A DNA stretch of 64,000 bases, from positions 3,054,001 through 3,118,000 of the forward strand of contig NZ_LR738849.1 of NCBI RefSeq assembly GCF_902702915.1, given 5' to 3'. Origin of the DNA: Desulfovibrio sp. 86 (GTDB taxonomy: Bacteria; Desulfobacterota; Desulfovibrionia; Desulfovibrionales; Desulfovibrionaceae). The position numbers were made by a program, and so were the translations under genes. The notes beneath the pieces were generated by a model. That model was given only the letters and a program-made list of their open reading frames with translations, was not told the DNA's origin and ran no database searches. This document shows positions 7,275 to 26,915 of the stretch, piece after piece (the stretch's first letter is position 1; every line of letters begins with the position of its first letter).

Positions 7275-8843
7275 TTAATCAGCGTCGGGTGCTTCGGTAA
7301 TATTGGCCGTTGGCAGGCATGTTCTCATAGCCCAATAATAACAAACCAATGACACGAGACCCATGGCGATTACATCCCATGGCGAGGTCAGGATTCCCTT
7401 TCCCCCGAAGGAGCCAAGATAGGAAATGATCAAGGTCATTACATAATAGCCCACAAGCCAAAGGGAGGACTTGATTTGCTGCTGCAGGCTCACGTGCAGG
7501 GTCGGCACTTTTTTGCTGGCGAGAATGTAGGCAACAAACAGCACTATCTCGATGGGGAACAGCCAGCAAATGACGCTCCATCCAGACCAGTACACAATAA
7601 GAGAGGCAATGATGAAGGTCAGCGGCGATATGATTTCCAGACCGCGGACCCGGAAGGGGCGGGGCAGGTCAGGAGCGTTTATGCGAAGCGCGCCGCAGGC
7701 GATGGGGGCAAGCGCATAGCTGAGGCACAGGGCGCCGGAAACGACGTTGATGAGTTCTTTCCAAGAGGGGAAGGGCATGGTCCAGAATATGGAAAGAGCC
7801 AGAGTAAGCCAAAGCGCGGGGCGGGGAATGCCCGATTTTTTGTCCACGGCTGAAAAACGGTCAAAGAACGTGCCGCTCCGCGACCATGCGTAAATGACCC
7901 GAGGAGTGGCGACCATATATATATTACCGGTTCCGGCGGGGGAGATGACCGCGTCGGCCACCACAAGGATACCCAGCCAGCCAAGACCCAGCAGTAAGGC
8001 GATGTCGTGGTAGGGGAGCGAAAACTTTGATGCTATGCTGCCCCAGCCTTCTGAAAGCATATCCGGGGGAATGCTGCCCAGAAAAACCAGTTGCAGGACA
8101 ATGTATATGATGGTGGAAAGCACGATGGACAGCAGCAGGGCAATGGGAATAGTGCGCTGGGGATTTTTTACCTCACTGGCCACCGATACCACAGGGGTCA
8201 GGCCAAGGTAGGCAAAAATGACGCCTCCGGCGGTTACCGCCATCTGCACGCCGTGAGCTCCAAATGGTGCAAAACCATGCGCCGTCAGATTTTCCGGCTG
8301 GAAGTAGTACATCAGAACAACCATCACCAGCGCGGGAACCACAAATTTGAAGAGACTGATGATATTATTGGCGATGGCGAATGATTTAACACCATTATAG
8401 TTGATTATGAAGAAAAAGACTGTCAGAAGGAGCTGGGCTATCCAGCCTGCCAGAGTCGGTGAACCGGTGGCGTCCGCCGTGAGCCAGGGCAGCCAGGCGG
8501 CGGCGTATTGGCGTGCGGCCACCACTTCAATGGCGATGAGGCTTGAAAAGGCAATGACGGTCAGTGAGGCGAGCAGATACCCGACAAGCTCCCCGTGAGA
8601 AAAAACAGGGAAGCGAATGATACCGCCAGCCTTGGGTAAGGCCGCTCCAAGTTCACAGTACACAAGGCCAAGAAAGAATACTGTGATACCACCAATGATC
8701 CAAGAAATGATTCCGGCAGGCCCCGCATATTGCGCCACAAAGCTTGCCCCAAACAGCCACCCGGACCCAAAGATAGCCCCTAGCGCGACAAAGGTGAGGT
8801 CTGTGGTATTCAGTTCTTTTTTGAATTTTCCTTGTTCAGCCAT
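7275..8843 (-). CDS. APC-superfamily amino-acid permease
   Basis: A 522-residue membrane protein with about 12-14 hydrophobic segments and an APC-type N-terminus (TFVALGAIFGSGWLFGASF, residues 16-34), where the GSGWLFG loop takes the place of the family's GxGIF substrate loop. GGGAGGAAG precedes the ATG at 8843. A sigma-54 promoter (8971-8985) and an upstream activator-like site (9049-9065) of the same kind as those of the hydroxyproline genes lie before it. It is therefore probably the hydroxyproline or proline importer of this regulon. The substrate is inferred from context, not from residues. Confidence 0.85.
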   Translation of the reverse strand: MAEQGKFKKELNTTDLTFVALGAIFGSGWLFGASFVAQYAGPAGIISWIIGGITVFFLGLVYCELGAALPKAGGIIRFPVFSHGELVGYLLASLTVIAFSSLIAIEVVAARQYAAAWLPWLTADATGSPTLAGWIAQLLLTVFFFIINYNGVKSFAIANNIISLFKFVVPALVMVVLMYYFQPENLTAHGFAPFGAHGVQMAVTAGGVIFAYLGLTPVVSVASEVKNPQRTIPIALLLSIVLSTIIYIVLQLVFLGSIPPDMLSEGWGSIASKFSLPYHDIALLLGLGWLGILVVADAVISPAGTGNIYMVATPRVIYAWSRSGTFFDRFSAVDKKSGIPRPALWLTLALSIFWTMPFPSWKELINVVSGALCLSYALAPIACGALRINAPDLPRPFRVRGLEIISPLTFIIASLIVYWSGWSVICWLFPIEIVLFVAYILASKKVPTLHVSLQQQIKSSLWLVGYYVMTLIISYLGSFGGKGILTSPWDVIAMGLVSLVCYYWAMRTCLPTANITEAPDAD

Positions 8844-8970: not shown

Positions 8971-8985
8971 GCAAAAATGTTGCCA
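8971..8985 (-). promoter_or_regulatory. Sigma-54 promoter of the APC permease
   Basis: On the minus strand this reads TGGCAACATTTTTGC, i.e. TGG-N10-GC with -24 GG and -12 GC, matching the sigma-54 consensus TGGCACG-N4-TTGC. It lies about 128 bp before the start codon. Confidence 0.75.
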
Positions 8986-9048
8986 CTGCGAAACTACCTG
9001 CAATAATTAAATTATAAAATTGAACTCATAAGTGCCGATTTGTTGCAA

Positions 9049-9065
9049 CGCAGCAAAATGCTACA
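9049..9065. promoter_or_regulatory. Upstream activator site (imperfect copy)
   Basis: The minus strand reads TGTAGC-ATTTT-GCTGCG, matching TGTAGC-N5-GCTACA in the first half and four of six bases in the second. It lies about 65 bp upstream of the sigma-54 promoter at 8971-8985. The two better copies are at 16731-16749 and 19402-19418. Confidence 0.55.
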
Positions 9066-9171
9066 AATGTATTTATTTGAAACAATGATGTGTGTTGATA
9101 CTATTTTGTATATGTGCTCGCGCCAGTACCATTCGACATAACGCGGTACGCCCCGGTGTTGCGATAAAACT

Positions 9172-9349
9172 AGGAGCAACCCACCTTGAAATTGGCCTGG
9201 CAAATGAGCGCGCAGACGCTCGGCGTGAAGGCATACGCGCAGTTTGTTTGCTCCAATGGGCTGGCGGCACATCATTTTTATTGCCGTGCTGGCTGTGGCG
9301 GAACACTTGCCTGTGCCTCTCCCACAGTGTCGTGCCGATCAAAATCTGG
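9172..9349. repeat. Dispersed intergenic repeat, class D (diverged copy)
   Basis: This stretch aligns by eye with the left half of the repeat at 12441-12712: GGAGCA start, GGCATACGCGCAGTTTGTTTGC, GCTGTGGCGG, and an end in TCAAAATCTGG. It is more diverged than the other copies and its edges are approximate. Together with the class B copy at 9533-9681 it fills most of the 980-bp gap between the permease and the epimerase genes. No gene was recognised in the rest of the gap. Confidence 0.55.
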
Positions 9350-9532
9350 AGCTGGCGCAGGGAAAACGGCTTGAAATGTGCAGGCTTTGCGCCAGGGGGA
9401 ATGAGAATGACGAGCATTCTGGCGCAAAGCCTGCGAAGAAAACAGAAACGTGCTGTGACATGCCAGGAAGTGCGTGAAAAAAACGCAACCACGAGCGCTT
9501 TTCACCTTTTCCTGCGCATTCATTTCATCTCG

Positions 9533-9681
9533 AGAGCATTTTCGCATTGAGAATATCTATTCTCAATGCTTTCAAGACGCCCGCTCCGGCGCGTAACAGC
9601 TCAAATAAATTGCGCTTACGCCTCCGGGGCGGGCGTCTGCTCCCGCATCCGCCAGAGCAATTTCAAAGAGAAATTGCTCTA
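9533..9681. repeat. Dispersed intergenic repeat, class B
   Basis: Begins AGAGCATTTTCGCATTGAGA with an internal AGAATATCTATTCT hairpin. It contains the GACGCCCGCTCCGGCGCGTA and GCGGGCGTCTGC blocks, which face each other as an inverted pair, and ends in GAAATTGCTCTA. It is closely matched by 47753-47994, which carries about 90 extra central bases. Confidence 0.8.
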
Positions 9682-9826
9682 AAAGCCGTGCAGTTTTTCA
9701 AGGCAGATCGCGTCAGAGTTACCGCGTTTTGGATTTTCTCTGGCGGCTGTGTGAAGCTGGCACGTGTGGTGACGGCGTAACGGGATGTTAAGAACTGTGG
9801 ATACACAGCTTCAACGGTCAGTCGCC

Positions 9827-10834
9827 CTAGTCCAGCCTGAATCCCTTGCCAAGCGCGTCGGAGGGGTCAATGACAAACTGGTGAAAACCCGTAAGATAAG
9901 CGGTTCCGCTTACCTCCGGCACACCGCCCTTGCAGGGACCCACGGTGGCTGGTTCCACAATTCTCGCCGTGAACTGGGTGCCTATGACGCTCTCATGCAC
10001 GAATTCCTGGTTCAGTGCCAGTTCGCCCTTGGCAAACAGTGAAGCCACACGTGCGGAAGTACCAGTACCGCAAGGAGAACGGTCGAGGGAGTCGGGCAGG
10101 AAAACCACAGTGTTACGATATGTTGCCTTGGGATCGTCAGGTGTGGTGTAGAACATCACATGGGTGATGACATTGATAAAAGGCTGTTCCGGATGCTTGA
10201 AATCCACGGCCTTGCGCACGGCTCCGCCGAATGCCTGGGCGGCTTTTTCAATGGCGGAACGGTAGCCGGAGCGCAGGTTCAGGCCAGGAAAATATTTTGC
10301 GTCAGTGATGGCGTATGTATTGCCGCCGTATGCCACATCATAGGGAACTTCCCCTATGCCGGGCACGTCAACCGTGCCGGAGCAGAACAGAAAAGAAGGC
10401 ACATTGCGGAAGGTTACGCGAGTCACCTTGCCGTCCTTCATTTCCGCCCTGGTTCGCACCAGGCCGGCAGGGGTGTCGATATTGACATTGCACACTTCGC
10501 CTTCAGGCACGATGGTTCCGCTTTCAAGCATGGCAGTGACGCAGCCTATGGTACTGTGCCCGCACATTGGCATAAGCCCGCCAGCGTCAATGAACAGTAT
10601 GCCCATATGAGCTTCAGGGTTGCAGGGGGGAACCCATATGGTGCCTGACATGTTGCTGTGGCCGCGCGGCTCAAGCATGAGAGAACTTATAAGCCAGCCG
10701 AGATGCTCTTTGGCGTAGGCCATTTTCTCCTGCATGGTTGTTCCCTGGATAGCAGGGCAGCCAGCCACCACATTGCGTGTGGGATTGCCAGCCGTATGGG
10801 TGTCAATGGTCTGGATCATGTGAGACAGTTTCAT
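9827..10834 (-). CDS. 4-Hydroxyproline 2-epimerase (proline racemase family)
   Basis: A 335-residue proline-racemase-fold enzyme. Both catalytic cysteines are present: C91 in MCGHSTIG and C255 in DRSPCGTGTSA. This separates it from the Thr-containing dehydratases of the family. It would interconvert trans-4-hydroxy-L-proline and cis-4-hydroxy-D-proline, the first step of the bacterial hydroxyproline pathway. Hydroxyproline rather than proline is chosen because the matching dehydrogenase, deaminase and semialdehyde dehydrogenase genes lie directly upstream. AGAGGAG precedes the ATG. It follows the aldehyde dehydrogenase gene by 71 bp and is last in the predicted operon. Confidence 0.88.
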   Translation of the reverse strand: MKLSHMIQTIDTHTAGNPTRNVVAGCPAIQGTTMQEKMAYAKEHLGWLISSLMLEPRGHSNMSGTIWVPPCNPEAHMGILFIDAGGLMPMCGHSTIGCVTAMLESGTIVPEGEVCNVNIDTPAGLVRTRAEMKDGKVTRVTFRNVPSFLFCSGTVDVPGIGEVPYDVAYGGNTYAITDAKYFPGLNLRSGYRSAIEKAAQAFGGAVRKAVDFKHPEQPFINVITHVMFYTTPDDPKATYRNTVVFLPDSLDRSPCGTGTSARVASLFAKGELALNQEFVHESVIGTQFTARIVEPATVGPCKGGVPEVSGTAYLTGFHQFVIDPSDALGKGFRLD

Positions 10835-10905
10835 GGCGGCTCCTCTTGAGTTATGGCTATGGCCTGGCCAGTTCGCATCCGGCGGACTGACCAGGCCTGT
10901 CGTGG

Positions 10906-12408
10906 CTATCTGTCAAGGTTGATGAATATGGTTTTCTGCTCGGTGTACTGGTCGTGGGACTCGCGTCCCTTGTCCTTGCCGCCGAAACCGGAAAGCTTGT
11001 ATCCGCCGAAGGGTGTCGTGTTGTCTCCTTCGCTGAAACAGTTGACGGACACGGTGCCTGCTTTGAGTTCGCTTGCAAAGGCGTGCGCCTTGGTCAGCGA
11101 CTCGGTGAAGATGGAGCCGTGCAGGCCGTAGCAGGTGTCATTGGCCAGGGCCAGCGCGTCTTCGTCAGAAGTGGCCGTAAGGATGGCCGTAACAGGGCCG
11201 AAGATCTCTTCGCGCACCACTGTGGCATCGCGCTTCACATTGTCAAAAATCGTGGGTTCGATGAAAAGGCCGCTGCCGATGGGGGCCGCTTTGCCGCCTG
11301 TGACAATGCGTCCACCTTCGGCCTTGCCTTTTTCAATATACCCCATGACGGTCTTGAACTGCTGCTCGCTGACCATTGAGCCAAGAGCGTTGGCGGGATC
11401 AAGGGGGTTACCCATCCGCCATTGGCTGAGGGCAGTCACAAACGCGCTCAAAAAGGCTTCTTTCTTGCTCGCGGGCACGATAATACGCGAATTGGCGGTG
11501 CAGTTTTCGCCCATATTCCAGAATGCGGCGGAGCAGGCCTGGCTTGCGGCAAACTCGAAGTCGGTAAAGTCTTCAAGCAGCACAAAGGGGCTTTTGCCGC
11601 CAAGCTCCAGCACCACGCGCTTCAGATTGCTTTCGGCAGAGTATTGCAAAAAGCGGCGTCCCACATCGGTGGATCCGGTAAACGAAAGGACGTCAATATC
11701 CATGTGCCGACCCAGGGCTTCACCCACAAGGCCGCCGGGGCCGGGCAACACTTGAAGCACGCCTTCGGGAACTCCGGCCTCTGCCGCCAGTTCGGCCAGG
11801 CGCAGTGTTGAAAGGCAGGTGACGCTGGCGGGCTTGATGATGACGCTGTTGCCTTCGGAAAGAGCGGGACCAAGCTTCCATCCGACCATTTGCAGGGGGA
11901 AGTTCCACGGCAGTACGCAGGCAACGACGCCTGACGGTTCACGTACGATAAGCCCGCGCTTGAGGTTGCCGGAAGGCGAGGTGCTGCCGTACTGCTTGTC
12001 GCTGAATTCGGCATGCCACTCCAGGCATTCGATGGTTTCAGGCAGGTCGGTACACAGGTTTTCGCGAATGGGCTTGCCGCTGTCGATACTTTCAAGCACA
12101 GCAAGCTCAACCATATGTTTTTCCATCAGTCCGCAAAGTCTGAGAAAGATTTTTTTGCGTTCAGTGGGGTGCATCTTGGACCACACCCCGGAGTCAAAAG
12201 TTTTGCGGGCCACAGATACGGCCTTGTCCACGTCTTCTTTGCCGCAGCTTGCAACTTGAGCCAGATCTTTGCCTGTAGCGGGGTTGATGGTGGCAAAGGT
12301 CTTGCCTGAAGCGGCAGAAACAAACTTTCCGCCAATGAATGCCTGGGTCGGATATTTCAGATTGGCTGCCAGATTTTCGTATTCCTGGCAGGTAAGGAAC
12401 TGTGACAT
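10906..12408 (-). CDS. Aldehyde dehydrogenase, probable 2-oxoglutarate semialdehyde dehydrogenase
   Basis: A 500-residue NAD(P)-dependent aldehyde dehydrogenase. Visible motifs are PWNFPLQM (cofactor site), FTGSTDVGR, ELGGKSP with the general-base Glu, and the catalytic Cys in NMGENCTANSR, with EEIFGPV near residue 400. By overall sequence it is nearest the PuuC/betaine-aldehyde type. In this cluster the expected substrate is 2-oxoglutarate semialdehyde, the product of the DapA-family deaminase, giving 2-oxoglutarate. GAGGAGAAA precedes the start. A 272-bp repeat separates it from the dehydrogenase alpha gene upstream. Confidence 0.82.
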   Translation of the reverse strand: MSQFLTCQEYENLAANLKYPTQAFIGGKFVSAASGKTFATINPATGKDLAQVASCGKEDVDKAVSVARKTFDSGVWSKMHPTERKKIFLRLCGLMEKHMVELAVLESIDSGKPIRENLCTDLPETIECLEWHAEFSDKQYGSTSPSGNLKRGLIVREPSGVVACVLPWNFPLQMVGWKLGPALSEGNSVIIKPASVTCLSTLRLAELAAEAGVPEGVLQVLPGPGGLVGEALGRHMDIDVLSFTGSTDVGRRFLQYSAESNLKRVVLELGGKSPFVLLEDFTDFEFAASQACSAAFWNMGENCTANSRIIVPASKKEAFLSAFVTALSQWRMGNPLDPANALGSMVSEQQFKTVMGYIEKGKAEGGRIVTGGKAAPIGSGLFIEPTIFDNVKRDATVVREEIFGPVTAILTATSDEDALALANDTCYGLHGSIFTESLTKAHAFASELKAGTVSVNCFSEGDNTTPFGGYKLSGFGGKDKGRESHDQYTEQKTIFINLDR

Positions 12409-12440
12409 TGAGTTTCTCCTCTTTAAAAGCCTTTGCGGTT

Positions 12441-12712
12441 AGAGCAATTTCACATTGAAATCACTATGGCGACTGCGTGGGCAGCGCTGGCCGGGAAGGC
12501 ATGTGCGCAGTTTGTCTGCGCTGTTAAGCGCTGTGGCGGGGCGTTGAAGCCGTTGCTGCTGCATATCCTCAACGGTAATCCGCTCTGGAGCAGTTTGCGA
12601 ATGGAATTTGTTAACTGCTCGGCAAGGATTTACTGAAAATCCTTGACTCGAAATGCGAGCAGGCAGGTTTTTTCCTGCCGGAAGCAAGCATTTCAAAGTT
12701 AATCTGCCCTAG
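12441..12712. repeat. Compound dispersed repeat (class D + class C) inside the hydroxyproline operon
   Basis: Two units lie head to tail. The first, 12441 to about 12590, is class D (also at 18117-18258 and, diverged, 9172-9349). The second, about 12591-12712, is class C and closely resembles 24133-24257, including the AAGGATTT...AAATCCTTG hairpin and the GGCAGG...CCTGCC hairpin. The outer end supplies the stop codon of the dehydrogenase alpha gene (12709-12711, minus strand). The unit has no gene of its own. Confidence 0.8.
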
Positions 12713-14097
12713 TTGAGGTCAGGCGGCATGGGCATGTCCGCCAGCTCTCCCAGATTCAGGGGGAAGAGCGGCGGCTGGGCCGTGTACTGCGGTAACTGAT
12801 CAAGCGGCAGTCCCTGAGTGTGGGCGATCATTTCGGCCACAGCCTGTCCGCACATGCGGCCCTGGCAGGTCCCCATGCCGGGGCGGGCCTGGGCCTTGAG
12901 ACCATCCGGCGAAAAACATCCTTGCCTGATGGTCTGTTGAAGTTCTGCGGCCGTGAGTTCCTCACAGCGGCAAACCACGGCATCGTCCGCCGGTTGCAAC
13001 TGGGACGGCGTGGGAGCGAAGTATTCATCAAGAAAGGGCTGCAGAGCCTGGCAACGCCTGACAATACTCATGTGGGAGTCTGCAAGCCGGTTGCGTTCGC
13101 TCATATTCAGGCGGCCCAGTTCGTGACAGATGCCCAGGCCAACCAGCCGGCCTTCCGCCTGTGCGGCCACAGCGCCACGAACACAAGCCACGTCGCCCGC
13201 CGTGCGTATGCCGGGCACGCTGGTCTGGCCCCATGCGTCGGCGCTCACGTGCCAGTAGCGCTGCCGTTCATCCCAGGTATGACGGCACCGGGCCAGGCGG
13301 GTAATGCGGCTTTCGGAAATGACGCCTTCATGCAAAAGCAGGGTTGCGGCCTGGAGGCTTTTATTGTTGCCGCTCATGCTGGCGAAATTAATTTTAAGAC
13401 GTTCCGTTTCAACCTGTTCTATCCTGAGGTCGCGAACGGCAAAGAAGCATTTTTGCGAGAAAACGGTTTGTGCGGCCATGCCGATGCCGTGCAAGAAATA
13501 TCCGGGACGGGCCAGGGCTCCGGTTATATGTTTCATGGCCCGCAGCACGTTGCTGATTCTGCCCGTGAACAGCACGCCAGCCACAGGAATCTTGAAGTGG
13601 TGCATATGCACAGCGGCCTGGAGAATGAGCGGACCGTTGCCGCACAGCACCACAGGAGCCGGGGGCAAAAGTGAGGCTGATTTGAGCAAAATGTCCGAAG
13701 CGCCGGAACCCATAACTCCGGGCAGGGTCCAGCCTGGCAGCGGAACAGGGCGTTCCATTGCTCCGGTGGCAAGCACAACCTGCCGGGCAGTCATGCAGTG
13801 ACTTTGGCCCGGTGTACTGAAATATACCCTGTCCGGGGCTATATCCCACACATTGGCGCTGGGCAGAAAAGTCGCGCCGCAGTTCTTGAACTCTTCCACC
13901 AGCGGGAGACCGGCAGAATAGTCTGAACCAAGACGGTTAACGAGGGCAGAGGAACCGACACTTCTGAATATCTGGCCGCCGGGTTCGGTTTGGCGGTCAA
14001 GCACCAGCGTGTGCAGCCCCTGCCGCGCTGTTTCAATGGCTGCGCACATGCCTGCGGGGCCAGCGCCGACAATAATGACATCCCATATGCTACGCAT
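12709..14097 (-). CDS. D-hydroxyproline dehydrogenase, FAD/NAD alpha-type subunit with [2Fe-2S] site
   Basis: A 462-residue pyridine-nucleotide-disulfide-type oxidoreductase, like HcnB and opine oxidase subunit A. DVIIVGAGPAGMCAA at residues 6-20 binds FAD, and LATGAMERPVPLPGWTLPG is the family's second signature. VVCRCEEL plus GMGTCQGRMC near the C-terminus give four cysteines for a BFD-like [2Fe-2S] cluster. With the small ferredoxin-like and DAO-type subunits encoded directly upstream, it matches the heteromeric enzymes that oxidise cis-4-hydroxy-D-proline. Its start overlaps the previous gene by 8 bp. Its stop lies in a dispersed repeat. Confidence 0.85.
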   Translation of the reverse strand: MRSIWDVIIVGAGPAGMCAAIETARQGLHTLVLDRQTEPGGQIFRSVGSSALVNRLGSDYSAGLPLVEEFKNCGATFLPSANVWDIAPDRVYFSTPGQSHCMTARQVVLATGAMERPVPLPGWTLPGVMGSGASDILLKSASLLPPAPVVLCGNGPLILQAAVHMHHFKIPVAGVLFTGRISNVLRAMKHITGALARPGYFLHGIGMAAQTVFSQKCFFAVRDLRIEQVETERLKINFASMSGNNKSLQAATLLLHEGVISESRITRLARCRHTWDERQRYWHVSADAWGQTSVPGIRTAGDVACVRGAVAAQAEGRLVGLGICHELGRLNMSERNRLADSHMSIVRRCQALQPFLDEYFAPTPSQLQPADDAVVCRCEELTAAELQQTIRQGCFSPDGLKAQARPGMGTCQGRMCGQAVAEMIAHTQGLPLDQLPQYTAQPPLFPLNLGELADMPMPPDLN

Positions 14098-14401
14098 GAT
14101 TGCAGCCCTCCTTGCCGAAGTCGGGAACCCCGTTCTGTCGGTTAACCTGCATGCCTTCAGCCACGGGAACGAGACATGACTGCTGGTTGGGGACGCCGTT
14201 AATAGTCATGAGGCATTCAAAACAAACGCCCATCTGGCAGTATGGTCCGCGTTTGTGCCCGCCATGCGTGGTGCGTGTCCAGCCATGCGACGCCCCGAGT
14301 ACGGCGGCGGCGACGGATATGCCTTCTTCAACCTCAAGAGGTTGGCCTTCAAAATAAATGGTCACCTGCCTGCCCGCAGAAGGGGTGGTTTTGACAGACA
14401 T
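14090..14401 (-). CDS. (2Fe-2S)-binding small subunit of D-hydroxyproline dehydrogenase
   Basis: A 103-residue protein of the HcnA/SoxD-like group. It carries a beta-grasp ferredoxin stretch (VTIYFEGQPLEVEEGISVAAAV) and the cysteines of YCQMGVCFECLMTI plus QSCLVPV, arranged as in plant-type [2Fe-2S] domains. It should relay electrons between the two flavin subunits. The gene lies 11 bp from the DAO-type subunit gene upstream and overlaps the alpha subunit gene downstream, which supports one three-subunit enzyme. Confidence 0.85.
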   Translation of the reverse strand: MSVKTTPSAGRQVTIYFEGQPLEVEEGISVAAAVLGASHGWTRTTHGGHKRGPYCQMGVCFECLMTINGVPNQQSCLVPVAEGMQVNRQNGVPDFGKEGCNHA

Positions 14402-14412
14402 GATTGTCCTCC

Positions 14413-15618
14413 TCAGGCAGTGGTTGTTGTGGCAGAAAGTGCCGCCGGGCCAGAGCCGAATCTGTCGAGGCCCATATAGCTGATGTCCATGAAAGGAGCC
14501 TGCCCGCGCACCATCTCTGTAATGAGTTTGCCCGTAATGAGTGAAAGGCCTATGCCGTTTCCTTCATGTCCGGTGGCGACAAAAAGCCCCTGAAGATGCG
14601 TGGCCGAAATGATGGGCTTGGCGTCCGGAGTGCAGGGCCGCAACCCCGCATAGCAGCGGATGATTCGCGTATCAGCCAGGGCAGGGTAAAAATGGCGGGC
14701 GCGTTGGGCGATAATGCGCATGACCCTGGGGTCGGGGCGGATGTTCATGCCGACGTAGCGACGGCTGCTGCCAAGCAGGATTGTTCCTGCGTGGGAGGGT
14801 TCAAGCACAAAGGCAACGCCAAAATGCTCCATTTCAGGCGTGGCATTGCAGCGCGTTTTACCACCCTTTGCCAGAAGGTAGCCGTATTCCGCATAGTTTT
14901 TTCCCACCAGATTGCGTACGCGCTCGGTCACGACAACATGCCCCTGGCGCGGCCTGACGGGAACGGAGATGCCCACCATGTCGGCAAGCAGGGGAGTCCA
15001 GACGCCTGCGGCGAGGATGACGTTCTCTGTATGGATGAGTCCCTTGTCCGTTTCAACCGTGGTGATCCGCCCTCCATCGGTGCGCAGTCCCGTGACGCTT
15101 GTTCTGGTCATGAGGGTGGCGCCGTTGGACTCTGCATGCAGGGCGAGCCCCTGACAAAGCCGCATGGGATTAAGCTTGCAGTCGCCATTAAAATTCAGGC
15201 AGGCCAGGATCTTGTCGCCAATATTGGGCTCATGGTGGCGCAGGTCGTCCCTGTCCCACAGGGTGACGTCAATGCCCTCATTTTTCTTGCCTTCATAGTT
15301 GGCGCGCACAGTGTCGAGATCCCGTTCGTCATCAACCAGCAGGCCGAGCCCCTCGGGCGAAAACTCGAAATCCACGGGCAGAAATTTTGCTGCATCATGA
15401 AACATGTCCTGCCCGTATTTGCAGAACTGGCTGTATGCGCCGGGGGGCGTGTCATAAGTGACCACATGCCCATCGCAGCGGCGGCTGGATCCCCAGGCGA
15501 ACTCACCCCGCTCGACAAGGGTCACATCAATTCCGTCCATGGCAAGATAGCAGGCTATGGCTGTACCTACCGCCCCCCCGCCGATGACAACGGCTCCGGC
15601 GGTGTGTTTGCTGCTCAT
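14413..15618 (-). CDS. D-hydroxyproline dehydrogenase, DAO-type FAD subunit
   Basis: The start was set at the ATG complementary to 15616-15618, preceded by AAAGGGA; the frame is open 36 codons further but without a ribosome site. The 401-residue DAO/DadA-fold protein begins AGAVVIGGGAVGTAIACYLA (FAD site) and has the family's late GHEGNGIGLSLITGKLI flavin motif. It is HcnC-like and is expected to be the amino-acid-oxidising subunit, making 1-pyrroline-4-hydroxy-2-carboxylate from cis-4-hydroxy-D-proline. Confidence 0.85.
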   Translation of the reverse strand: MSSKHTAGAVVIGGGAVGTAIACYLAMDGIDVTLVERGEFAWGSSRRCDGHVVTYDTPPGAYSQFCKYGQDMFHDAAKFLPVDFEFSPEGLGLLVDDERDLDTVRANYEGKKNEGIDVTLWDRDDLRHHEPNIGDKILACLNFNGDCKLNPMRLCQGLALHAESNGATLMTRTSVTGLRTDGGRITTVETDKGLIHTENVILAAGVWTPLLADMVGISVPVRPRQGHVVVTERVRNLVGKNYAEYGYLLAKGGKTRCNATPEMEHFGVAFVLEPSHAGTILLGSSRRYVGMNIRPDPRVMRIIAQRARHFYPALADTRIIRCYAGLRPCTPDAKPIISATHLQGLFVATGHEGNGIGLSLITGKLITEMVRGQAPFMDISYMGLDRFGSGPAALSATTTTA

Positions 15619-15691
15619 GGCAATTCCCTTTGCTTCAGATTTTCCGGTATGTTCATGAGGGGCCGCCAGAAGCCGCCCCTCATGAACGGTG

Positions 15692-16579
15692 CTAGCAAAA
15701 GTCAGTCTTCTTGAGAATTTTTTCAAGCTCTACACGCACTTCCTCAGAAATGGGCTGTCGGGGCATACGCAGCGTGCCTGTCCCGAATCCCTTGAGCGCA
15801 AGCGCGTGCTTGACCACCTGCCAGAGTTCGCCTGTGTCTTCCAGCAGACGCAGCAAAGGCAGCATTTGCCGGTATACCTGCCGGGCCTCATCAAGCTTGT
15901 GTTCTTTGACAATAAGGTTGTAGAGCTTGACGCACATGGCGGGGGCAATATTGGCAAGCACGCAAACCCAGGCCTTGGCGCCCATGACAAAGCTTTCATA
16001 GGCCAGGCTTTCGCACCCGCAGAATACCACCAGCTTGTCGCCCACTTCGTCCACAGAACGGGTCAGCCGCATGATGTCGCCGCTGGATTCTTTAAGAAAA
16101 CCCATGTTGGGCAGCTGGGCGCATTTTACCAGAGTTTCAGGCGATACGGCCACGCCGCAGCTGCCGGGGTTGTTGTACACCATTACCGGCAGTGGGCTTT
16201 TGCCGGAAATGTATTTGTAGAATTCATAAATCTCATGCTGGCTGGGATGCACGGCGGGAGGAGGAAGAATCATGACGCCCGCAGCGCCTATGGATCCTGC
16301 ATGCTTTGACAGTTCAACCGAAACATCGACGTTGGGCGAAATGGCGCCCACAATTACCGGAACCTTGCCGTTTACTTCCTTCATGGTGAATTCGGCAACC
16401 TGCTTGCGTTCTTCGGTGGAAAGCGCTGGCCATTCGCCAGTGGCTCCCACGGGCATGATGCCGTGTACGCCTGATTTGAGCAACCACTGGATATGTTTGG
16501 ATATAGCGCCGTAGTCGATGCTGCCGTCCTGATTAAAGTGCGTCACCGTTACTGCGAAAATACCGTGAATGTTGTTCAT
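15692..16579 (-). CDS. DapA-family lyase, probable 1-pyrroline-4-hydroxy-2-carboxylate deaminase
   Basis: A 295-residue (beta/alpha)8 aldolase of the dihydrodipicolinate synthase/N-acetylneuraminate lyase family. It shows GATGEWPALSTEER near residue 46, the tyrosine of VMVYNNPGSCG and the Schiff-base lysine of GFLKESSGD. In hydroxyproline pathways a member of this family removes ammonia and water from the pyrroline product to give 2-oxoglutarate semialdehyde. It is the first gene of the operon, directly behind a sigma-54 promoter (16614-16628) and an upstream activator palindrome. A GGAGG-like site precedes the ATG. Confidence 0.82.
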   Translation of the reverse strand: MNNIHGIFAVTVTHFNQDGSIDYGAISKHIQWLLKSGVHGIMPVGATGEWPALSTEERKQVAEFTMKEVNGKVPVIVGAISPNVDVSVELSKHAGSIGAAGVMILPPPAVHPSQHEIYEFYKYISGKSPLPVMVYNNPGSCGVAVSPETLVKCAQLPNMGFLKESSGDIMRLTRSVDEVGDKLVVFCGCESLAYESFVMGAKAWVCVLANIAPAMCVKLYNLIVKEHKLDEARQVYRQMLPLLRLLEDTGELWQVVKHALALKGFGTGTLRMPRQPISEEVRVELEKILKKTDFC

Positions 16580-16613
16580 GTATCCTCCATTGGATGTTTG
16601 TGCATTGTCTCTA

Positions 16614-16628
16614 GCAAAAAATCTACCA
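16614..16628 (-). promoter_or_regulatory. Sigma-54 promoter of the hydroxyproline operon
   Basis: The minus strand reads TGGTAGATTTTTTGC, with TGG and GC exactly 10 bases apart as sigma-54 requires. It lies 35 bp before the start of the DapA-family gene and is nearly identical to 19299-19313. Confidence 0.75.
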
Positions 16629-16730
16629 ACAGCAGGTGAAACATAACTACATAGAAAATATGGCTGTTTTGGATTGCTTTTTTGCCCGTGTGTGCCATGC
16701 TACAGATTTTGATGCGTCACAACACTACAG

Positions 16731-16749
16731 GTGTAGCCTTGCGCTACAC
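16731..16749. promoter_or_regulatory. Upstream activator site (perfect palindrome)
   Basis: GTGTAGC-CTTGC-GCTACAC is a perfect 7+5+7 inverted repeat about 105 bp upstream of the sigma-54 promoter at 16614-16628, the usual distance for an enhancer-binding protein. A further GCTACA half-site lies at 16699-16704. Confidence 0.7.
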
Positions 16750-16760
16750 TCTGATGAAAC

Positions 16761-18071
16761 CTATTTCTTGCCGCCGATGATGGGTACAATAAGGATGGCT
16801 GAAAGCAGTGATGCCGCAGTCATGACGATGAAGAATCCGTTCCAGCTTGTGGTTTCAATGACCATAGCCAGCGGCAGGCCGGTGCAGGCGGCTCCCAGGT
16901 ATCCGAAAAGTCCTACAAAGCCTGTGGCCGTGCCCGCGTATTCCTTGTGGCAGACTTCGGCGGCGGCCATGCCGGTGAGCATTTGCGGGCCAAAGATGAA
17001 AAAGCCGATCAGAAAAAACACGGAACCAAGGGCGATTTTGGAACTCAGGGGCAAAAGCCAGAGCGCGCCCACGGAACACATGATGCCCAGCATGAAAATG
17101 ATGTTCATCGGGATGCGGTTGCCCTTGAACAGTTTGTCCGATCCCCATCCGGCGACGATGGTGCCGATGAAACCGCCGATCTCAAGCATGGTGATGGCGC
17201 TGTTGGCCACAAGCAGGTCAACGCCATGTTCCGTTACAAGGTACATGTTGGCCCAATCGTTGACGCCGATGCGCACGACGTACACAAGCACGTAGGAAAT
17301 GGCCAGGAGCCAGATGTATTTGTTGGTGAATACGTAGCGGCGCAACACCTGCCATGTGGTGAGCGAGCTTTCGCTTTTCTTTACCTGCTCCAGTTCCAGT
17401 TGGTCCTTGCGCCATTCTCCCACCCTGGGCAGTCCCATTGATTCCGGTCTGTCCCGCATGATGATGCAAAGAATGATGCCCGCCACAATCCCGATGATGC
17501 CCGGAATGATCATGCCGTAACGCCAGCCGTAGTGTATGGCCAGCCATCCCGCGAGCAGTGGAATAATGGCGCCGCCCACGTTGTGCGAGGTGTTGCACAC
17601 GGCCCACCAGAAGCCGCGCTCGTTGCGCGAGTACCATGTGGTGAGAATCTTGGTGCAGGGCGGCCAGCCCCAACCCTGAAAGAAGGCGTTGAGTCCCCAC
17701 AGAATGGCCAGTGCCAACAGGGACGAACTCATGCCGAAGGCTATGTTGATGATGCCTGTGATGATGAGCCCAACGCCCATGAAATAGCGGGGATTGGACT
17801 TGTCGCTTATGATGCCACCCACAAACCGTGACGAACCGTAAACGATGTAGAAAATGGTACTCAGGATGCCCACGTCCGAGAGCTGCCAGTCAAGGTCTTT
17901 GAGCATGGCTGGCATGATTGACTTGTAGCTGTTGCGGGTGAAGTAAAAAATGGCGTAACCAAGCCATATGGATGCCATCATGTGTATGCGCCAGTATGCG
18001 TAGTCTTTGTCTATCTCTTCCGCGCTCTTGGTAACCGGGCGCGCAGGTGATGCTTTAAAGAAATTTACCAT
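16761..18071 (-). CDS. OPA-family MFS transporter (GlpT/UhpC-like)
   Basis: A 436-residue, 12-segment transporter. The N-terminus AYWRIHMMASIWLGYAIFYFTRNSY and the loop GGIISDKSNPRYFMGVGLI are typical of the organophosphate:phosphate antiporter family, as is NAFFQGWGWPPCTKILTTWYS. Known members exchange phosphate for glycerol-3-phosphate, hexose-phosphates or phosphoglycerate. It follows the IMPase-family phosphatase gene, and both lie behind the sigma-54 promoter at 19299-19313. Its presence in a hydroxyproline regulon is unexpected. Either it carries a non-phosphorylated substrate here, or the unit handles a phosphate ester. Confidence 0.85.
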   Translation of the reverse strand: MVNFFKASPARPVTKSAEEIDKDYAYWRIHMMASIWLGYAIFYFTRNSYKSIMPAMLKDLDWQLSDVGILSTIFYIVYGSSRFVGGIISDKSNPRYFMGVGLIITGIINIAFGMSSSLLALAILWGLNAFFQGWGWPPCTKILTTWYSRNERGFWWAVCNTSHNVGGAIIPLLAGWLAIHYGWRYGMIIPGIIGIVAGIILCIIMRDRPESMGLPRVGEWRKDQLELEQVKKSESSLTTWQVLRRYVFTNKYIWLLAISYVLVYVVRIGVNDWANMYLVTEHGVDLLVANSAITMLEIGGFIGTIVAGWGSDKLFKGNRIPMNIIFMLGIMCSVGALWLLPLSSKIALGSVFFLIGFFIFGPQMLTGMAAAEVCHKEYAGTATGFVGLFGYLGAACTGLPLAMVIETTSWNGFFIVMTAASLLSAILIVPIIGGKK

Positions 18072-18116
18072 GGCGTATCCTTAGTGCAAAATGGGCGGGT
18101 ATATCGCCGGATGCGC

Positions 18117-18258
18117 AGAGCAACGTCAGGAAAACTGCTCTGGCGAGAGCGCATGCAGGTGTTCGGCGTGAAGCCGTATGCGCTGCTCGCACTGGCAAGC
18201 GCCGGAGCATGCGTGTCCGAAGCTTTGCAGGCGTATTCTCAGCGGCAACCCGATCTAG
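18117..18258. repeat. Dispersed intergenic repeat, class D
   Basis: Runs from AGAGCAACG to TCTCAGCGGCAACCCGATCTAG and fills the gap between the phosphatase and OPA transporter genes. The distal end matches CCTCAACGGTAATCCGCTCTGG, the end of the class D unit at 12441-12590. The minus-strand TAG at 18255-18257 is the phosphatase stop codon. Confidence 0.7.
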
Positions 18259-19049
18259 CGATGGGCCTTGATTTCACGCAAAACCTGTTCATGCAGCCTG
18301 CTGTCGCCACATGCCAGAACCTGCATGCCGGAATGCATGGTCAGAGGATTGCCCTCCCAATCGGACATGACGCCCCCCGCACCCTCAATGATTGGCACAA
18401 GAGCGCAATAATCCACTTCGCGCATGATTCCGCTGTCAAAGCAGAGGTCTATCTTGCCTGCCGCAAGGCTCATGTAGCCATAGCATGCGCCGCCGTAGAC
18501 GCGCCATTTGGTGGATGCGATGAGGTGATTGTAGGCCGCCCTGTCGGATTTAAAGACAAATTCGGTATTGCTTGAAGCCACCAGGGCGGTGGCGAGGTCG
18601 GTATGGGGGCGGGTTTGTATGGGCAGACCGTTGACTGTGGATTGCCGCCCCTTTATCCCCACCCAGCGTTCAGCCATGACGGGCATTTCCACAACACCAA
18701 GAACGGGTACGCCGTTGCGGCACAGGGCAATGAGCGTCCCGTAAAATGGATAGCCCACAATGAACTGTCGTGTGCCGTCGATGGGGTCGATCACCCACAC
18801 GTATTCGGCTGTGGCGGCGTCGGCCCCATATTCTTCCCCAAGCATGCCGTGATCTGGAAACGCGCCAGAAATGATTGAACGTATTTCACGTTCCACGCGT
18901 TCATCCGTCTCCGTCACCGGGCTGGCGTCAGTTTTGGTTTTAAAATCATAATTTCCACGCAGATATTTCTGTCTGTGTTCCGTGAGTATCTGGCGTGAAA
19001 CGTCCGCAGCCTGCATGGCTATGTCTAAAAATGCTTCATACTCTGGCAT
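18255..19049 (-). CDS. Inositol-monophosphatase-family phosphatase (HisN-like)
   Basis: A 264-residue Mg-dependent phosphatase of the IMPase fold. Metal-site motifs are GEEYGA (about residue 72), WVIDPIDGTRQFI (about 84-96) and the late REVDYCALVPIIEGAGG. The spacing and the DPIDGT-RQF form are closest to HisN-type histidinol-phosphate phosphatases. No histidine-biosynthesis genes are nearby. The gene is the first in a sigma-54-driven pair with the OPA transporter, so its substrate may be a phosphate ester brought in by that carrier. That role is inference. Confidence 0.8.
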   Translation of the reverse strand: MPEYEAFLDIAMQAADVSRQILTEHRQKYLRGNYDFKTKTDASPVTETDERVEREIRSIISGAFPDHGMLGEEYGADAATAEYVWVIDPIDGTRQFIVGYPFYGTLIALCRNGVPVLGVVEMPVMAERWVGIKGRQSTVNGLPIQTRPHTDLATALVASSNTEFVFKSDRAAYNHLIASTKWRVYGGACYGYMSLAAGKIDLCFDSGIMREVDYCALVPIIEGAGGVMSDWEGNPLTMHSGMQVLACGDSRLHEQVLREIKAHR

Positions 19050-19298
19050 CGCAATGTCTCCGTCTGTAAGGGGGGAGGATGCAGACCGGTTGGTCTTGTA
19101 AAGGCGTTCACTGCCGCGTCGCGGCTGGAATTCATGCCTGATTGTGTCATTGGAATGTGTAAATGCAGTTTTCTATTCAAAATACGCATATTTTATTTTT
19201 TAAATAATAATTTATTGTAAAATGTTATATATAAAAGTTTGTTGTGCAACAATACTATGTGTTCAAAGCAAATAGTAGTCAGGTAATTTTGTATATCA

Positions 19299-19313
19299 GC
19301 AAAAAATCTGCCA
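19299..19313 (-). promoter_or_regulatory. Sigma-54 promoter of the phosphatase/OPA transporter pair
   Basis: The minus strand reads TGGCAGATTTTTTGC, a TGG-N10-GC match that differs from the promoter at 16614-16628 by one base. It lies about 250 bp upstream of the phosphatase start. Confidence 0.75.
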
Positions 19314-19401
19314 ACTTTGCACAGACTGGCGTGAAATGCTGATGCCATCGGGATGCTCGGTGTTGCACAATAAATTTTAGATTGGTAATATATAAAATAA
19401 T

Positions 19402-19440
19402 TGTAGCATAACGCTACAGTCGTGTTTGCTTACGCTACAC
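19402..19440. promoter_or_regulatory. Upstream activator sites in the divergent control region
   Basis: TGTAGC-ATAAC-GCTACA at 19402-19418 is a perfect 6+5+6 inverted repeat. An imperfect second copy, GTGTTTG-CTTAC-GCTACAC, ends at 19440, just before the Shine-Dalgarno of the activator gene. The sites are about 90-125 bp upstream of the sigma-54 promoter at 19299-19313. They may serve both as enhancer and as autoregulatory operator. The rest of the 400-bp gap (19050-19458) is AT-rich with no gene. Confidence 0.7.
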
Positions 19441-19458: not shown

Positions 19459-20523
19459 ATGAGGTGTCTCCCCATCGACTTCTCACCACAAAATCCCGTG
19501 TACCAGCAAACGGTCCATGAAGCCTGGAAGGATTTCATTGATGGCGGTGAAATCCGGGGGCGTGTGCCCGAGCATATTCTGGATGGATGGCTGCTCAGCC
19601 GCGATGCCTGTATTGACCCTGTGCGGGTTCCCGACGTGCCGGTGCTGGAACGGGTTCATTTTGAAGACTTGTGCAGCCAATTCGCCACGTTGCTCAATGC
19701 AGCGGCTCCTGTGCTGGAAATGCTTGATTCATGCATTAGCGGAACTGGCCACATGGCAATTCTTACCAGTTCCTCCGGGCATATTCTTGCTACCGTGGGC
19801 GACAAGGATTTGCTTGATGTGGCCCGTACCCAGTACAACATGCCCGGTGCTGACAGAAATATCGACAAGGTCGGCGCTTCAGCCATAGGCATGACCCTGC
19901 AACGGCGTCGTCCGGTGCAGATATACGGTTATGAGCATTACAATGCTGGCCTGCATTCGTGGCGTTGTGCTTCCGCTCCCATTCTGGCTGATGCCTCGGG
20001 CGTTCTGGCCGTGCTGACCATTTCGGGCAATATTGCCAGTCCCGAGATACAGGCGCTCGCGCTGGTGACGACCTTTGCCAACTATATAGGCATGCGCGTG
20101 CGCCAGCAGACCATAGAAACCACCGGGCAGAAGCTTGAGGCTTTATTGCGGAATGCCCATGATTCCCTGACCTACCCATTGCTGGTGCTTGATGGCAATG
20201 GCGGCATCACCCACGCCAACAGGCATGCATCAACATTGTTTACTTCTGGCGAACTTGAGCTTCCGGGAAGAAGCGCTGTTTCTCTGGTGAGCTCTCTTGA
20301 TGCGCAAAGGCTGCAACGGGCTCTGGCCGGACAAAGGCAAGGTCATGACACCCTGACATTTCTTACGGGCCAGGGGCCACAACGCATCGCCTGCACATTT
20401 TCGCCTGTGGAACTGAGCGCGGGAAGAACCGTGGGGATGGCCCTTGCGCTTAACCTGGATACGTTTGCGCCGGGCGGGCGAAACAGGGGCAAAACAGCCA
20501 GCGGCCCGCTTCCGACCTCCTGA
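19459..20523 (+). CDS. Sigma-54 activator, sensory half (AcoR/DhaR-type N-terminus), ends at in-frame TGA
   Basis: The start is the ATG at 19459, with AGGAGG nine bases upstream. The 354-residue product begins with the AcoR/DhaR-like region. It then has a GAF-like stretch (GHMAILTSSSGHILATVGD...VGASAIGMTLQRRRPVQIYGYEHY) and a PAS-like segment near residues 225-330 (LTYPLLVLDGNGGITHANRH). The frame closes at TGA 20521-20523 just before the AAA+ domain, which continues in the same frame at 20530. In relatives these parts are one protein. Upstream-activator-type palindromes precede it. It is the likely regulator of the surrounding hydroxyproline genes. Confidence 0.82.
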   Translation: MRCLPIDFSPQNPVYQQTVHEAWKDFIDGGEIRGRVPEHILDGWLLSRDACIDPVRVPDVPVLERVHFEDLCSQFATLLNAAAPVLEMLDSCISGTGHMAILTSSSGHILATVGDKDLLDVARTQYNMPGADRNIDKVGASAIGMTLQRRRPVQIYGYEHYNAGLHSWRCASAPILADASGVLAVLTISGNIASPEIQALALVTTFANYIGMRVRQQTIETTGQKLEALLRNAHDSLTYPLLVLDGNGGITHANRHASTLFTSGELELPGRSAVSLVSSLDAQRLQRALAGQRQGHDTLTFLTGQGPQRIACTFSPVELSAGRTVGMALALNLDTFAPGGRNRGKTASGPLPTS

Positions 20524-20529
20524 AAGGCC

Positions 20530-21528
20530 GTGTTGCCGACCCGTGAGGTCGAGTCCGTCCACACAGCCACATACCAGTTCTCAGACATCCTGGGGGCCAG
20601 CCCCGCTTTGCGGCAGGCTATCAACTTTGCCCGTCGTGCTTCCCGCATGGCCTCACGCATCGTTATTTTGGGAGAAAGCGGCACTGGTAAGGAACTTTTC
20701 GCCCAGGCAATTCACAATGCCGGAAATGAGCCAGATCGGCCCTTTGTCGGCATTTCTTGCGCCGCCATTCCCAATAACCTTATTGAAGCCGAACTGTTTG
20801 GTTATGAAGAGGGCGCTTTTACCGGAGCGCGAAAGGGCGGGCAGAAGGGTCGGCTTGAAGCGGCCAATGGCGGAACGCTCTTTCTGGATGAAGTAAACAG
20901 CTTGCCATTGGCAGTGCAGGCCAAGCTTTTACGCGTCCTGCAGGAAATGACTTTTTCACCTCTTGGAAGCAATCACCTTGTTCGTCTTGACGTCCGAGTC
21001 ATTGCCGCAGGCAATACAAATCTGGCGGATGAGGTGCAAGCGGGAACCTTTCGGTCTGACCTCTATTACCGTCTCAATGTCTTGGAAATCGAGCTGCCAC
21101 CTCTTCGAGAACGTAAAGGGGATGTGGAATTGCTGGCAAAAACATTCTGGCGCAAGCTTTGTGCGCGTATGAACCTGCCCATGGTAACCGTTGAGCCTGC
21201 CGTGTTGGAAATGCTCAATGCCTATTCCTGGCCGGGCAACGTACGTGAATTGCAAAACGTATGCGAAAGGGCCCTGGTGCTCTCTGACGGGGCTTCCATC
21301 AGGCTTGATTGTCTGCCACGCCATATTACCGGAAAGAACGTGACGGTTCTGGCTGCCGGGCAACCAGAGGTTGCACTTGGGCATGCTTCCATGGACGATT
21401 TGTGTGAAAATATGGTGCGTAAAACGCTGGAAGCCGCTGGGGGAAACATCAGCAAAGCCTCTGAGACGCTGGGCATAGCCAGAACGACTCTGTATAGAAA
21501 AATGAAGAAATATGGCCTGGGGCAGTAG
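20530..21528 (+). CDS. Sigma-54 activator, AAA+ and DNA-binding half
   Basis: A 332-residue central-plus-C-terminal half of an enhancer-binding protein, in the same frame as the preceding gene. Walker A is GESGTGKE (residues 48-55), the sigma-54 contact loop GAFTGA is at 95-100, and Walker B is GTLFLDE. A Fis-type helix-turn-helix closes the protein (NISKASETLGIARTTLYRKM). Translation would have to begin at GTG 20530 or TTG 20533 after the AAAGG at 20523-20527, or by stop-codon readthrough. If neither happens the regulator is a pseudogene. Sequencing error at 20521-20523 is a simple alternative. Confidence 0.82.
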   Translation: MLPTREVESVHTATYQFSDILGASPALRQAINFARRASRMASRIVILGESGTGKELFAQAIHNAGNEPDRPFVGISCAAIPNNLIEAELFGYEEGAFTGARKGGQKGRLEAANGGTLFLDEVNSLPLAVQAKLLRVLQEMTFSPLGSNHLVRLDVRVIAAGNTNLADEVQAGTFRSDLYYRLNVLEIELPPLRERKGDVELLAKTFWRKLCARMNLPMVTVEPAVLEMLNAYSWPGNVRELQNVCERALVLSDGASIRLDCLPRHITGKNVTVLAAGQPEVALGHASMDDLCENMVRKTLEAAGGNISKASETLGIARTTLYRKMKKYGLGQ

Positions 21529-22734: not shown

Positions 22735-22803
22735 TCAGGCTATCCGCTTTTCAATCCTTTGTACCGGTCTGGCCAAACGCCGCAAGGACCAAAAGAGTTT
22801 GCC

Positions 22804-24135: not shown

Positions 24136-24257
24136 AGCAGTTAACGAATGAAATGAGTTTGCTCGGCAAGGATTTTCCTGAAAATCCTTGCCGCGAAATG
24201 CGCGAAGGCAGGCTTTTGCCTGCCGTAAGCGAGCATTTCAAAGTTAAAATGCTCTAG
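24133..24257. repeat. Dispersed intergenic repeat, class C
   Basis: A 125-bp element, TAGAGCAGTTAACG...GTTAAAATGCTCTAG. It has the hairpin CAAGGATTTTCCTGAAAATCCTTG and a second hairpin of GGCAGG/CCTGCC. It is nearly the same as the right half of 12441-12712. It separates dtnK from pdxA2 and provides the dtnK stop codon. Confidence 0.85.
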
Positions 24258-24323
24258 TGTGGCGGCGTTTACCGTTGCCGGTGAAATCCCATTACTGAAA
24301 TTACAAAAATAAGGAAATTCAAT

Positions 24324-25325: not shown

Positions 25326-25424
25326 GGACTGTTCCAGAAAAGAGGCCCCTGGAGGGTTGGGGGTCTCTTCTGGAGTTTTTGTGCCGTTCACGCCGGCTTT
25401 TCACTGTAACTACCTGTCTGGAGA

Positions 25425-26792: not shown

Positions 26793-26915
26793 CCTTTTCG
26801 GCCGTCCGGGCTGGGGGGCTTGCCTTCCCGGCCCGGAGCCGTTACCCCCATTTCTATACTGACCTGACGTGCTGAATCCTGGCTGCACGTCAGCGTCATC
26901 CACAAGGAGCATTTC

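Follow-up and report, generated by a model that had tools for sequence, protein, structure and literature searches.

A candidate sigma-54 (hydroxy)proline regulon in Desulfovibrio sp. 86 and the conserved in-frame UGA in its predicted activator gene

Introduction

Sigma-54 regulons of Desulfovibrio vulgaris were defined from conserved promoters, upstream palindromes, and co-localized activators, as set out in the main text of that regulome study (PMC4641369). The main text of a separate sigma-54 comparison places proline racemase among the genes predominantly under sigma-54 in Bacilli (PMC12316311), and PrdR is described as an experimentally validated activator of proline catabolism (PMC9130780). 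The HypR regulon of Proteobacteria is described as containing hypE, hypO, hypD, and hypH under a regulator that is often autoregulated (PMC5343134). Here we describe a cluster in Desulfovibrio sp. 86 (contig NZ_LR738849.1, positions 3,054,001 to 3,118,000) in which genes predicted to serve the use of hydroxyproline lie behind sigma-54-type promoters and a shared palindrome, beside the gene for a predicted activator that carries an in-frame UGA. The whole stretch of 64,000 nucleotides is referred to as the window, and positions are counted from its first letter. We consider it likely that the cluster is a sigma-54 (hydroxy)proline regulon whose activator would be made by reading through the UGA.

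Bacterial selenoproteins are encoded with an in-frame UGA followed, 16-37 nt on, by a hairpin with a G in the first two loop positions, according to the main texts of three reports (PMC13188914, PMC9312934, PMC1794560). A putative regulator of the FmdB family is listed as a selenoprotein, and selenium-responsive regulation by HrsM has been described (PMC9312934, PMC13188914).

Results

Three -24/-12 promoter-like sites were found on the minus strand where the first-pass annotation had placed them. The promoter of an APC-type permease lies at 8971-8985 (TGGCAACATTTTTGC; identical in the relatives G058 and G020, TGGCAAATTTTTTGC in G010), that of a catabolic operon headed by a DapA-type gene at 16614-16628 (TGGTAGATTTTTTGC; kept in 3/3 relatives, with one base different in G020), and that of a phosphatase/OPA transporter pair at 19299-19313 (TGGCAGATTTTTTGC; the same sequence in G058 and G020, missing from G010). 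The three palindromes were also where they had been reported, the middle one at 16732-16748. The permease palindrome, CGCAGC-AAAAT-GCTACA (9049-9065), has 2 mismatches to TGTAGC-N5-GCTACA and is kept in all three relatives. The palindrome of the DapA operon, TGTAGC-CTTGC-GCTACA, is perfect and has an extra half site, CTACA, just on its promoter-proximal side. The third, TGTAGC-ATAAC-GCTACA (19402-19418), is perfect as well and stands between the phosphatase/OPA pair and the activator gene. Each palindrome is upstream of its promoter, with gaps of 63 bp (permease), 103 bp (DapA operon), and 88 bp (phosphatase/OPA). A second partial site, TGTTTGC-TTAC-GCTACA (19423-19439; 3 mismatches), adjoins the ribosome-binding site of the activator gene, and its TGTAGCG half was retained in 4/4 genomes.

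The -24/-12 consensus at ≤2 mismatches occurred 94 times in the 64 kb against 108.4 expected, and the palindrome at ≤3 mismatches 18 times in the window against 20.8 expected; neither is above chance. Significance of promoter or degenerate-palindrome matches by consensus alone was therefore rejected. The perfect word TGTAGC-N5-GCTACA occurred twice in the window and 0 times in 100 shuffles (0.00 expected). These two are the only perfect palindromes in the 3,464,070-base genome, in which the reversed-pattern control gave 0; at ≤2 mismatches the whole genome had 83 sites compared to 41 for the reversed control. The degenerate palindrome at 9049-9065 is not significant by itself. Its credibility comes from its conservation in G058, G020, and G010, the G010 version having 1 mismatch only.

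Conservation was assessed in 79 genomes of the genus and 209 genomes of the family outside the genus, and in larger sets of 288 family and 348 order genomes. The sensor half of the activator matched 12 of the 79 genus genomes at E ≤ 1e-20. Four of these matches were close (G000, 100% identity over its length; G058, 99%; G020, 92%; G010, 80%), and the remaining 8 genomes had 28-31% identity only. The DapA-type enzyme at E ≤ 1e-60 was found in the same 4 of the 79 genomes. Exactly two perfect palindromes were present in each of these same 4, all within the cluster, whereas none of the other 75 genus genomes had two and 4 of the 75 had one. The possibility, raised in the first-pass annotation, that relatives keeping the cluster might lack the palindromes was examined; within the genus, all three cluster-bearing relatives keep both perfect palindromes together with the APC and DapA promoters. 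When the upstream DNA was aligned, the DapA promoter, its perfect palindrome, and the extra half site proved to be kept in 3/3 relatives, as are the APC promoter and its degenerate palindrome. The proposal of one sigma-54 regulon is thus supported by the footprints in three relatives and by the co-occurrence of activator, DapA-type gene, and perfect palindrome in the same four genomes; by comparative analysis it is well supported in the genus and partly so outside it.

Outside the genus the picture is mixed. In G118, which belongs to another genus and whose sensor has 38% identity, the aldehyde dehydrogenase (ALDH) gene is preceded by a perfect palindrome and the DapA-type gene by a one-mismatch palindrome with a -24/-12 match. 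No -24/-12 match was found on the strand of the G118 ALDH gene, even with a relaxed rule. Two sets of observations weigh against the proposed regulon. In the more distant genomes G277 and G146, where an activator homologue still neighbors several enzyme genes, the 19.9 kb examined had no palindrome at ≤1 mismatch, and inspection by eye showed partial sites only. In addition, the perfect word was present in 12 of the 209 family genomes outside the genus; G118, G149, and G198 had two or three copies each and G206 had four. Some other regulator, such as a repressor, could bind the palindrome, and its nearness to -24/-12 promoters would then be accidental. Consistent with this, the four perfect palindromes of G206 have no -24/-12 match within 300 bp, and the second perfect palindrome of G118 is off the cluster, on another contig, likewise with no such match within 300 bp. 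The same word may therefore serve other proteins. However, the palindrome co-occurs with the activator in the genus and recurs beside the same enzymes in G118, and we regard a different regulator at this cluster as improbable.

The G206 palindromes (locus L068, C7:74000-92000) lie at 4688, 6083, 7537, and 13398, over about 9 kb, in a genome of another genus. In G198 (locus L069), two perfect palindromes lie within 1.5 kb, one with a weak -24/-12 match. Another regulator is possibly using the same word in these two genomes. Identities within a single cluster were also uneven: in G118 (locus L045) the phosphatase/OPA pair is 82-83% identical and a dehydrogenase subunit 56%, and in G277 (locus L046) the ALDH is 85% and the epimerase 49%. 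These values suggest gene exchange.

The activator gene lies on the plus strand. Its sensor half (19459-20520) encodes a DhaR-like N-terminal domain and a PAS domain. An in-frame TGA follows at 20521-20523, between the PAS and AAA+ domains, and the second half (20524-21528) encodes the AAA+ domain (PF00158, 7e-65) and a Fis-type helix-turn-helix (PF02954, 6.5e-13). Walker A (GESGTGKE) and GAFTGA motifs are both present in the translation. The GAFTGA reported in the first-pass annotation therefore holds; the in-frame TGA had been missed there, and the activator is not one open frame. The TGA is at the same place in 4/4 orthologues, with the frame continuing into the AAA+ domain. The recurrence of the UGA in four genomes led us to reject a sequencing error. 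The ratio of nonsynonymous to synonymous substitution rates (dN/dS), calculated with our own Nei-Gojobori script in comparisons with G058, G020, and G010 (dS 0.07 to 1.55), was 0.087-0.091 for the sensor half and 0.075-0.099 for the AAA+ half. Each half appears to be translated and is under purifying selection. An internal stop usually points to a decaying gene, and if the UGA were a nonsense mutation the regulon would be constitutive or dead. In opposition to this, the UGA is common to four genomes with dS up to 1.55, dN/dS is below 0.1 on both sides of it, and the promoters and palindromes are retained. Decay of the activator was rejected on the dN/dS and dS of both halves, and we consider it extremely improbable.

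Read-through of the UGA by ribosomes is the simplest account, and from the comparison of orthologues we consider it probable, because the TGA is present in 4/4, selection acts on both halves, and two of the genomes have no early start codon after it. The last point bears on a split activator, in which the sensor and the AAA+/helix-turn-helix part would be separate proteins, the latter re-initiated just after the UGA and controlled in trans by the sensor. GTG and TTG are present at codons 3 and 4 past the UGA in the window and in G058, so a separate AAA+ protein is possible in those two genomes, and the solved relatives of the AAA+ half include the activator PspF, which has no sensor domain. 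However, in G020 and G010 the first ATG, GTG, or TTG comes no earlier than codon 29 after the UGA, although a rarer start codon may be used there. The Pfam match to the AAA+ domain begins at about codon 22 after the UGA, so that codon 29 falls inside it and a start there would cut the domain. The frame is maintained through the UGA in all four genomes, and conservation over codons 7-28 is protein-like: the columns invariant with three uninterrupted homologues start at codon 9 (V364, A370, F374, D376, I377, and G379). We therefore judge a split activator to be unlikely.

Read-through as the account of this gene also has points against it. Apart from the two start codons noted above, the third-position test over codons 7-28 gave modest values (p 0.019, 0.031, and 0.18). 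Only four UGA orthologues were found, two of them about 98% identical, and searches of the 288 family and 348 order genomes yielded no fifth.

The distant homologues in G118, G277, G146, and G147 are a single open frame without the 20-residue linker stretch that holds the UGA. A structure model was not of usable quality (mean predicted local distance difference test score, pLDDT, 54.8; 7 sequences); its linker, 336-374, was of low confidence, as was much of the AAA+ part.

If the UGA is read, the residue inserted could be selenocysteine. A tRNA-Sec above the gathering score was present in 4/4 genomes and SelB above cut-off in 3/4, the window genome included. Formate dehydrogenase (Fdh) genes with an internal UGA were found in all four genomes, two or three per genome, so UGA is presumably decoded in them. 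Downstream of the activator UGA, on the plus strand, is the hairpin CGACC-CGUGA-GGUCG (20537-20551 in the window, and the same in G058), whose loop starts 18 nt after the TGA; a U-A pair replaces a C-G pair in G020, and G-U replaces A-U in G010. For comparison we used 11 Fdh loci, with three antisense open frames set aside. In five of the 11, from two kinds of gene (L076, and L078-L081, a single gene sampled in four species), a 5-nt loop, GGUCU, starts at +18. The loop of L082 and L083 is AGGUCU at +17, whereas L072-L075 fold in another way, with GGCUCU where the others have GGUCU.

As a control, hairpins were scored at every gap-free codon position of five aligned genes in the four genomes, a total of 2167 positions whose counts are not independent because neighboring codon positions share hairpins. 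The exact geometry (+18, 5-nt loop) was present in all four genomes at 1 of the 2167 positions, the UGA itself. Loosening the geometry to +17/+18 and a loop of 5-6 gave 10 positions, and requiring a compensated pair with a loop of 4-8 at any distance of 16-37 gave 26. A loose rule for the selenocysteine insertion sequence (SECIS), near the published model, was satisfied in all four genomes at 601 positions, and a generic bacterial SECIS match was rejected as evidence because it is uninformative. No selenium-containing hydrogenase had an internal stop among the 18 matches listed.

Several observations weigh against selenocysteine. The exact geometry, shared with part of the Fdh sites, was fixed after the hairpin had been seen, and 6 of the 11 Fdh loci have a geometry other than +18 with a 5-nt loop. 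The loop of the activator hairpin is CGUGA and not the GGUCU of Fdh. Pair probabilities reached 0.94-0.98 in two of the sequences, but they were middling in G010 (0.64-0.67) and low in G020 (0.35-0.44), and the folding free energy was not unusual in three sequences (z -1.13, -0.41, and -0.73). No SECIS family was among five weak Rfam matches. SelB was not above cut-off in G058, a draft genome. The UGA also has no cysteine counterpart, since the four uninterrupted homologues lack the linker insert. On these grounds we propose only tentatively that the activator may be a selenoprotein, with SelB inserting selenocysteine at the linker UGA.

Read-through could also take the form of a leaky UGA that a near-cognate tRNA decodes only rarely and without any role for selenium; this would keep the activator scarce. 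The linker insert is poorly conserved, such that any residue would do, and the hairpin loop is unlike the Fdh loops. By itself, however, leakiness leaves unexplained why all four sequences keep a hairpin with a compensated pair at the spacing seen in 5 of the 11 Fdh loci, though comparable hairpins occur at the 26 control positions given above. We regard a leaky UGA as rather doubtful, and selenocysteine is slightly favored over a near-cognate tRNA as the source of the residue.

The phosphatase/OPA pair is on the minus strand. The transporter (16761-18071) is of the OPA/MFS sugar-phosphate type (PF07690), with 673.9 bits to the UhpC subfamily model against a cut-off of 564, and the phosphatase (18255-19049) is of the inositol-monophosphatase family (PF00459), with 254.7 bits to HisN, below the cut-off of 275.15. 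At E ≤ 1e-30 the phosphatase was found in 3 of the 79 genus genomes, all among the four that bear the activator. G010 had no phosphatase match genome-wide at this threshold and no OPA match in the 41.9 kb examined, the rest of that genome not having been searched for OPA. In G058 (locus L018, about 13400-15620), 579 bp are missing across part of the phosphatase gene and the interval between it and OPA, and the OPA match is itself split over different frames. In G118, the phosphatase with OPA is downstream of a dehydrogenase gene. As the phosphatase is absent in one relative and broken in another, the pair appears to travel with the pathway as a dispensable accessory. The membership predicted in the first-pass annotation is accordingly supported for the APC and DapA transcripts, and is qualified for the phosphatase/OPA pair. 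Our guesses for its role are a phosphorylated intermediate or a sugar-phosphate signal. The palindrome at 19402-19418 is retained in G010 without the phosphatase promoter, so it probably belongs to the activator gene as well.

The remaining genes of the cluster, all on the minus strand, were assigned to families by Pfam and NCBIfam profile matches. The APC-type amino-acid permease (7275-8843; PF13520, 7e-45), behind a conserved promoter, is likely an imino-acid importer, judging by its family. In G010 the permease match on contig 2 (locus L020, 17688-19252) is in two overlapping frames, which is a frameshift or an assembly error. The catabolic operon is headed by a DapA/DHDPS-family lyase (15692-16579; PF00701, 2e-62), likely a pyrroline-4-hydroxy-2-carboxylate deaminase. 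Three subunits of a predicted imino-acid dehydrogenase follow: a DAO-type FAD subunit (14413-15726; PF01266, 6e-69), a small 2Fe-2S subunit of the Fer2_4 type (14090-14401; PF13510, 1e-27), and an FAD/NAD subunit with a BFD-type [2Fe-2S] domain (12709-14097; PF07992 and PF04324). A 300-bp gap at 12409-12708, with short open reading frames only, separates the dehydrogenase genes from the ALDH gene inside the operon. The ALDH (10906-12408; PF00171, 1e-156) is likely an alpha-ketoglutarate semialdehyde dehydrogenase, although none of the best 25 of 43 NCBIfam models was above cut-off for it. The last gene (9827-10834; PF05544, 6e-106) is of the proline racemase/4-hydroxyproline epimerase family. 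It has MCGH and SPCGTG cysteines, a pair that we take to be the racemase/epimerase pattern and not that of the dehydratase. Its scores fell short of all the equivalog cut-offs listed (NF010578, 327 against 376 bits; proline racemase, 350 against 556).

By family match, the cluster thus brings together a dehydrogenase, a DapA-type deaminase, and a semialdehyde dehydrogenase. Because the DapA-type lyase and the semialdehyde dehydrogenase fit the 4-hydroxyproline route and not simple proline use, we infer from the set of enzyme families that hydroxyproline is the substrate and inducer.

The genes adjoining the activator, at 21961-28079, encode a DeoR regulator, a kinase of the SBD_N/NBD_C type, a PdxA family protein, a GntP permease, and a glycerate kinase. 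From these families, the region looks like one for sugar-acid use.

Discussion

The arrangement suggests the following mechanism. An activator of the DhaR kind, with a sensor, PAS, AAA+ (GAFTGA), and Fis-type helix-turn-helix, would be encoded beside its own targets and would bind TGTAGC-N5-GCTACA sites 63-103 bp upstream of -24/-12 promoters. It would switch on a first transcript for the APC permease, a second for the DapA-type deaminase, three-subunit dehydrogenase, semialdehyde dehydrogenase, and epimerase, and a third for the phosphatase/OPA pair, and the site at 19402 would probably also control the activator gene itself. The conserved UGA in the linker between sensor and AAA+ domain would be read as an amino acid to give a single polypeptide, so that functional activator would be made by only a fraction of ribosomes, or only in UGA-decoding cells.

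The regulon offers a testable gene list for hydroxyproline use in Desulfovibrio and a candidate binding word for the activator. Should read-through occur, a catabolic regulon would be controlled through the decoding of a stop codon, and standard gene prediction would divide the activator in two. If selenocysteine is the residue inserted, selenium would gate the whole hydroxyproline regulon, and selenium status would decide whether an amino acid derived from collagen can be used; in cells lacking selenium or SelB, synthesis would stop at the sensor half and the regulon would be off. The activator would then be a sigma-54 activator that depends on the 21st amino acid for its own synthesis, and its selenocysteine would lie in a regulatory linker instead of an active site.

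In the literature searched, subscription papers being outside it, there was no earlier report of such a regulon or of a selenocysteine-containing activator. The main text of the D. vulgaris regulome has no mention of hydroxyproline or TGTAGC (PMC4641369), and that of the sigma-54 comparison no mention of hydroxyproline or selenocysteine (PMC12316311). The word "sigma" is absent from the main texts of all three selenoprotein reports, in which word searches showed no sigma-54 activator (PMC13188914, PMC9312934, PMC1794560), and PAS, GAF, and AAA+ have no mention in the main text of one of them (PMC13188914). From the known selenoproteins the activator would differ in having its UGA in a linker, with no cysteine homologue.

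The closest described systems each share part of this arrangement. The locus follows the same logic of promoter, palindrome, and neighboring activator as the D. vulgaris sigma-54 regulons, as described in the main text of that study (PMC4641369). It has the same pathway genes as the HypR regulon, but HypR is described as a GntR-family negative regulator and not a sigma-54 activator (PMC5343134). Among activators, the sensor half resembles DhaR (NF008485) at 3.7e-15 and the AAA+/helix-turn-helix half at 6e-79, and the latter half resembles PrdR (NF041552) at 1.8e-113. In contrast, the two halves scored separately reach 55.3 and 266 bits against the DhaR cut-off of 551, and the AAA+ half reaches 380 bits against the PrdR cut-off of 795; the activator here also differs from both in its linker insert with the in-frame UGA. 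The regulon is a further case of a known sigma-54 regulon type, and the conserved UGA sets its activator apart.

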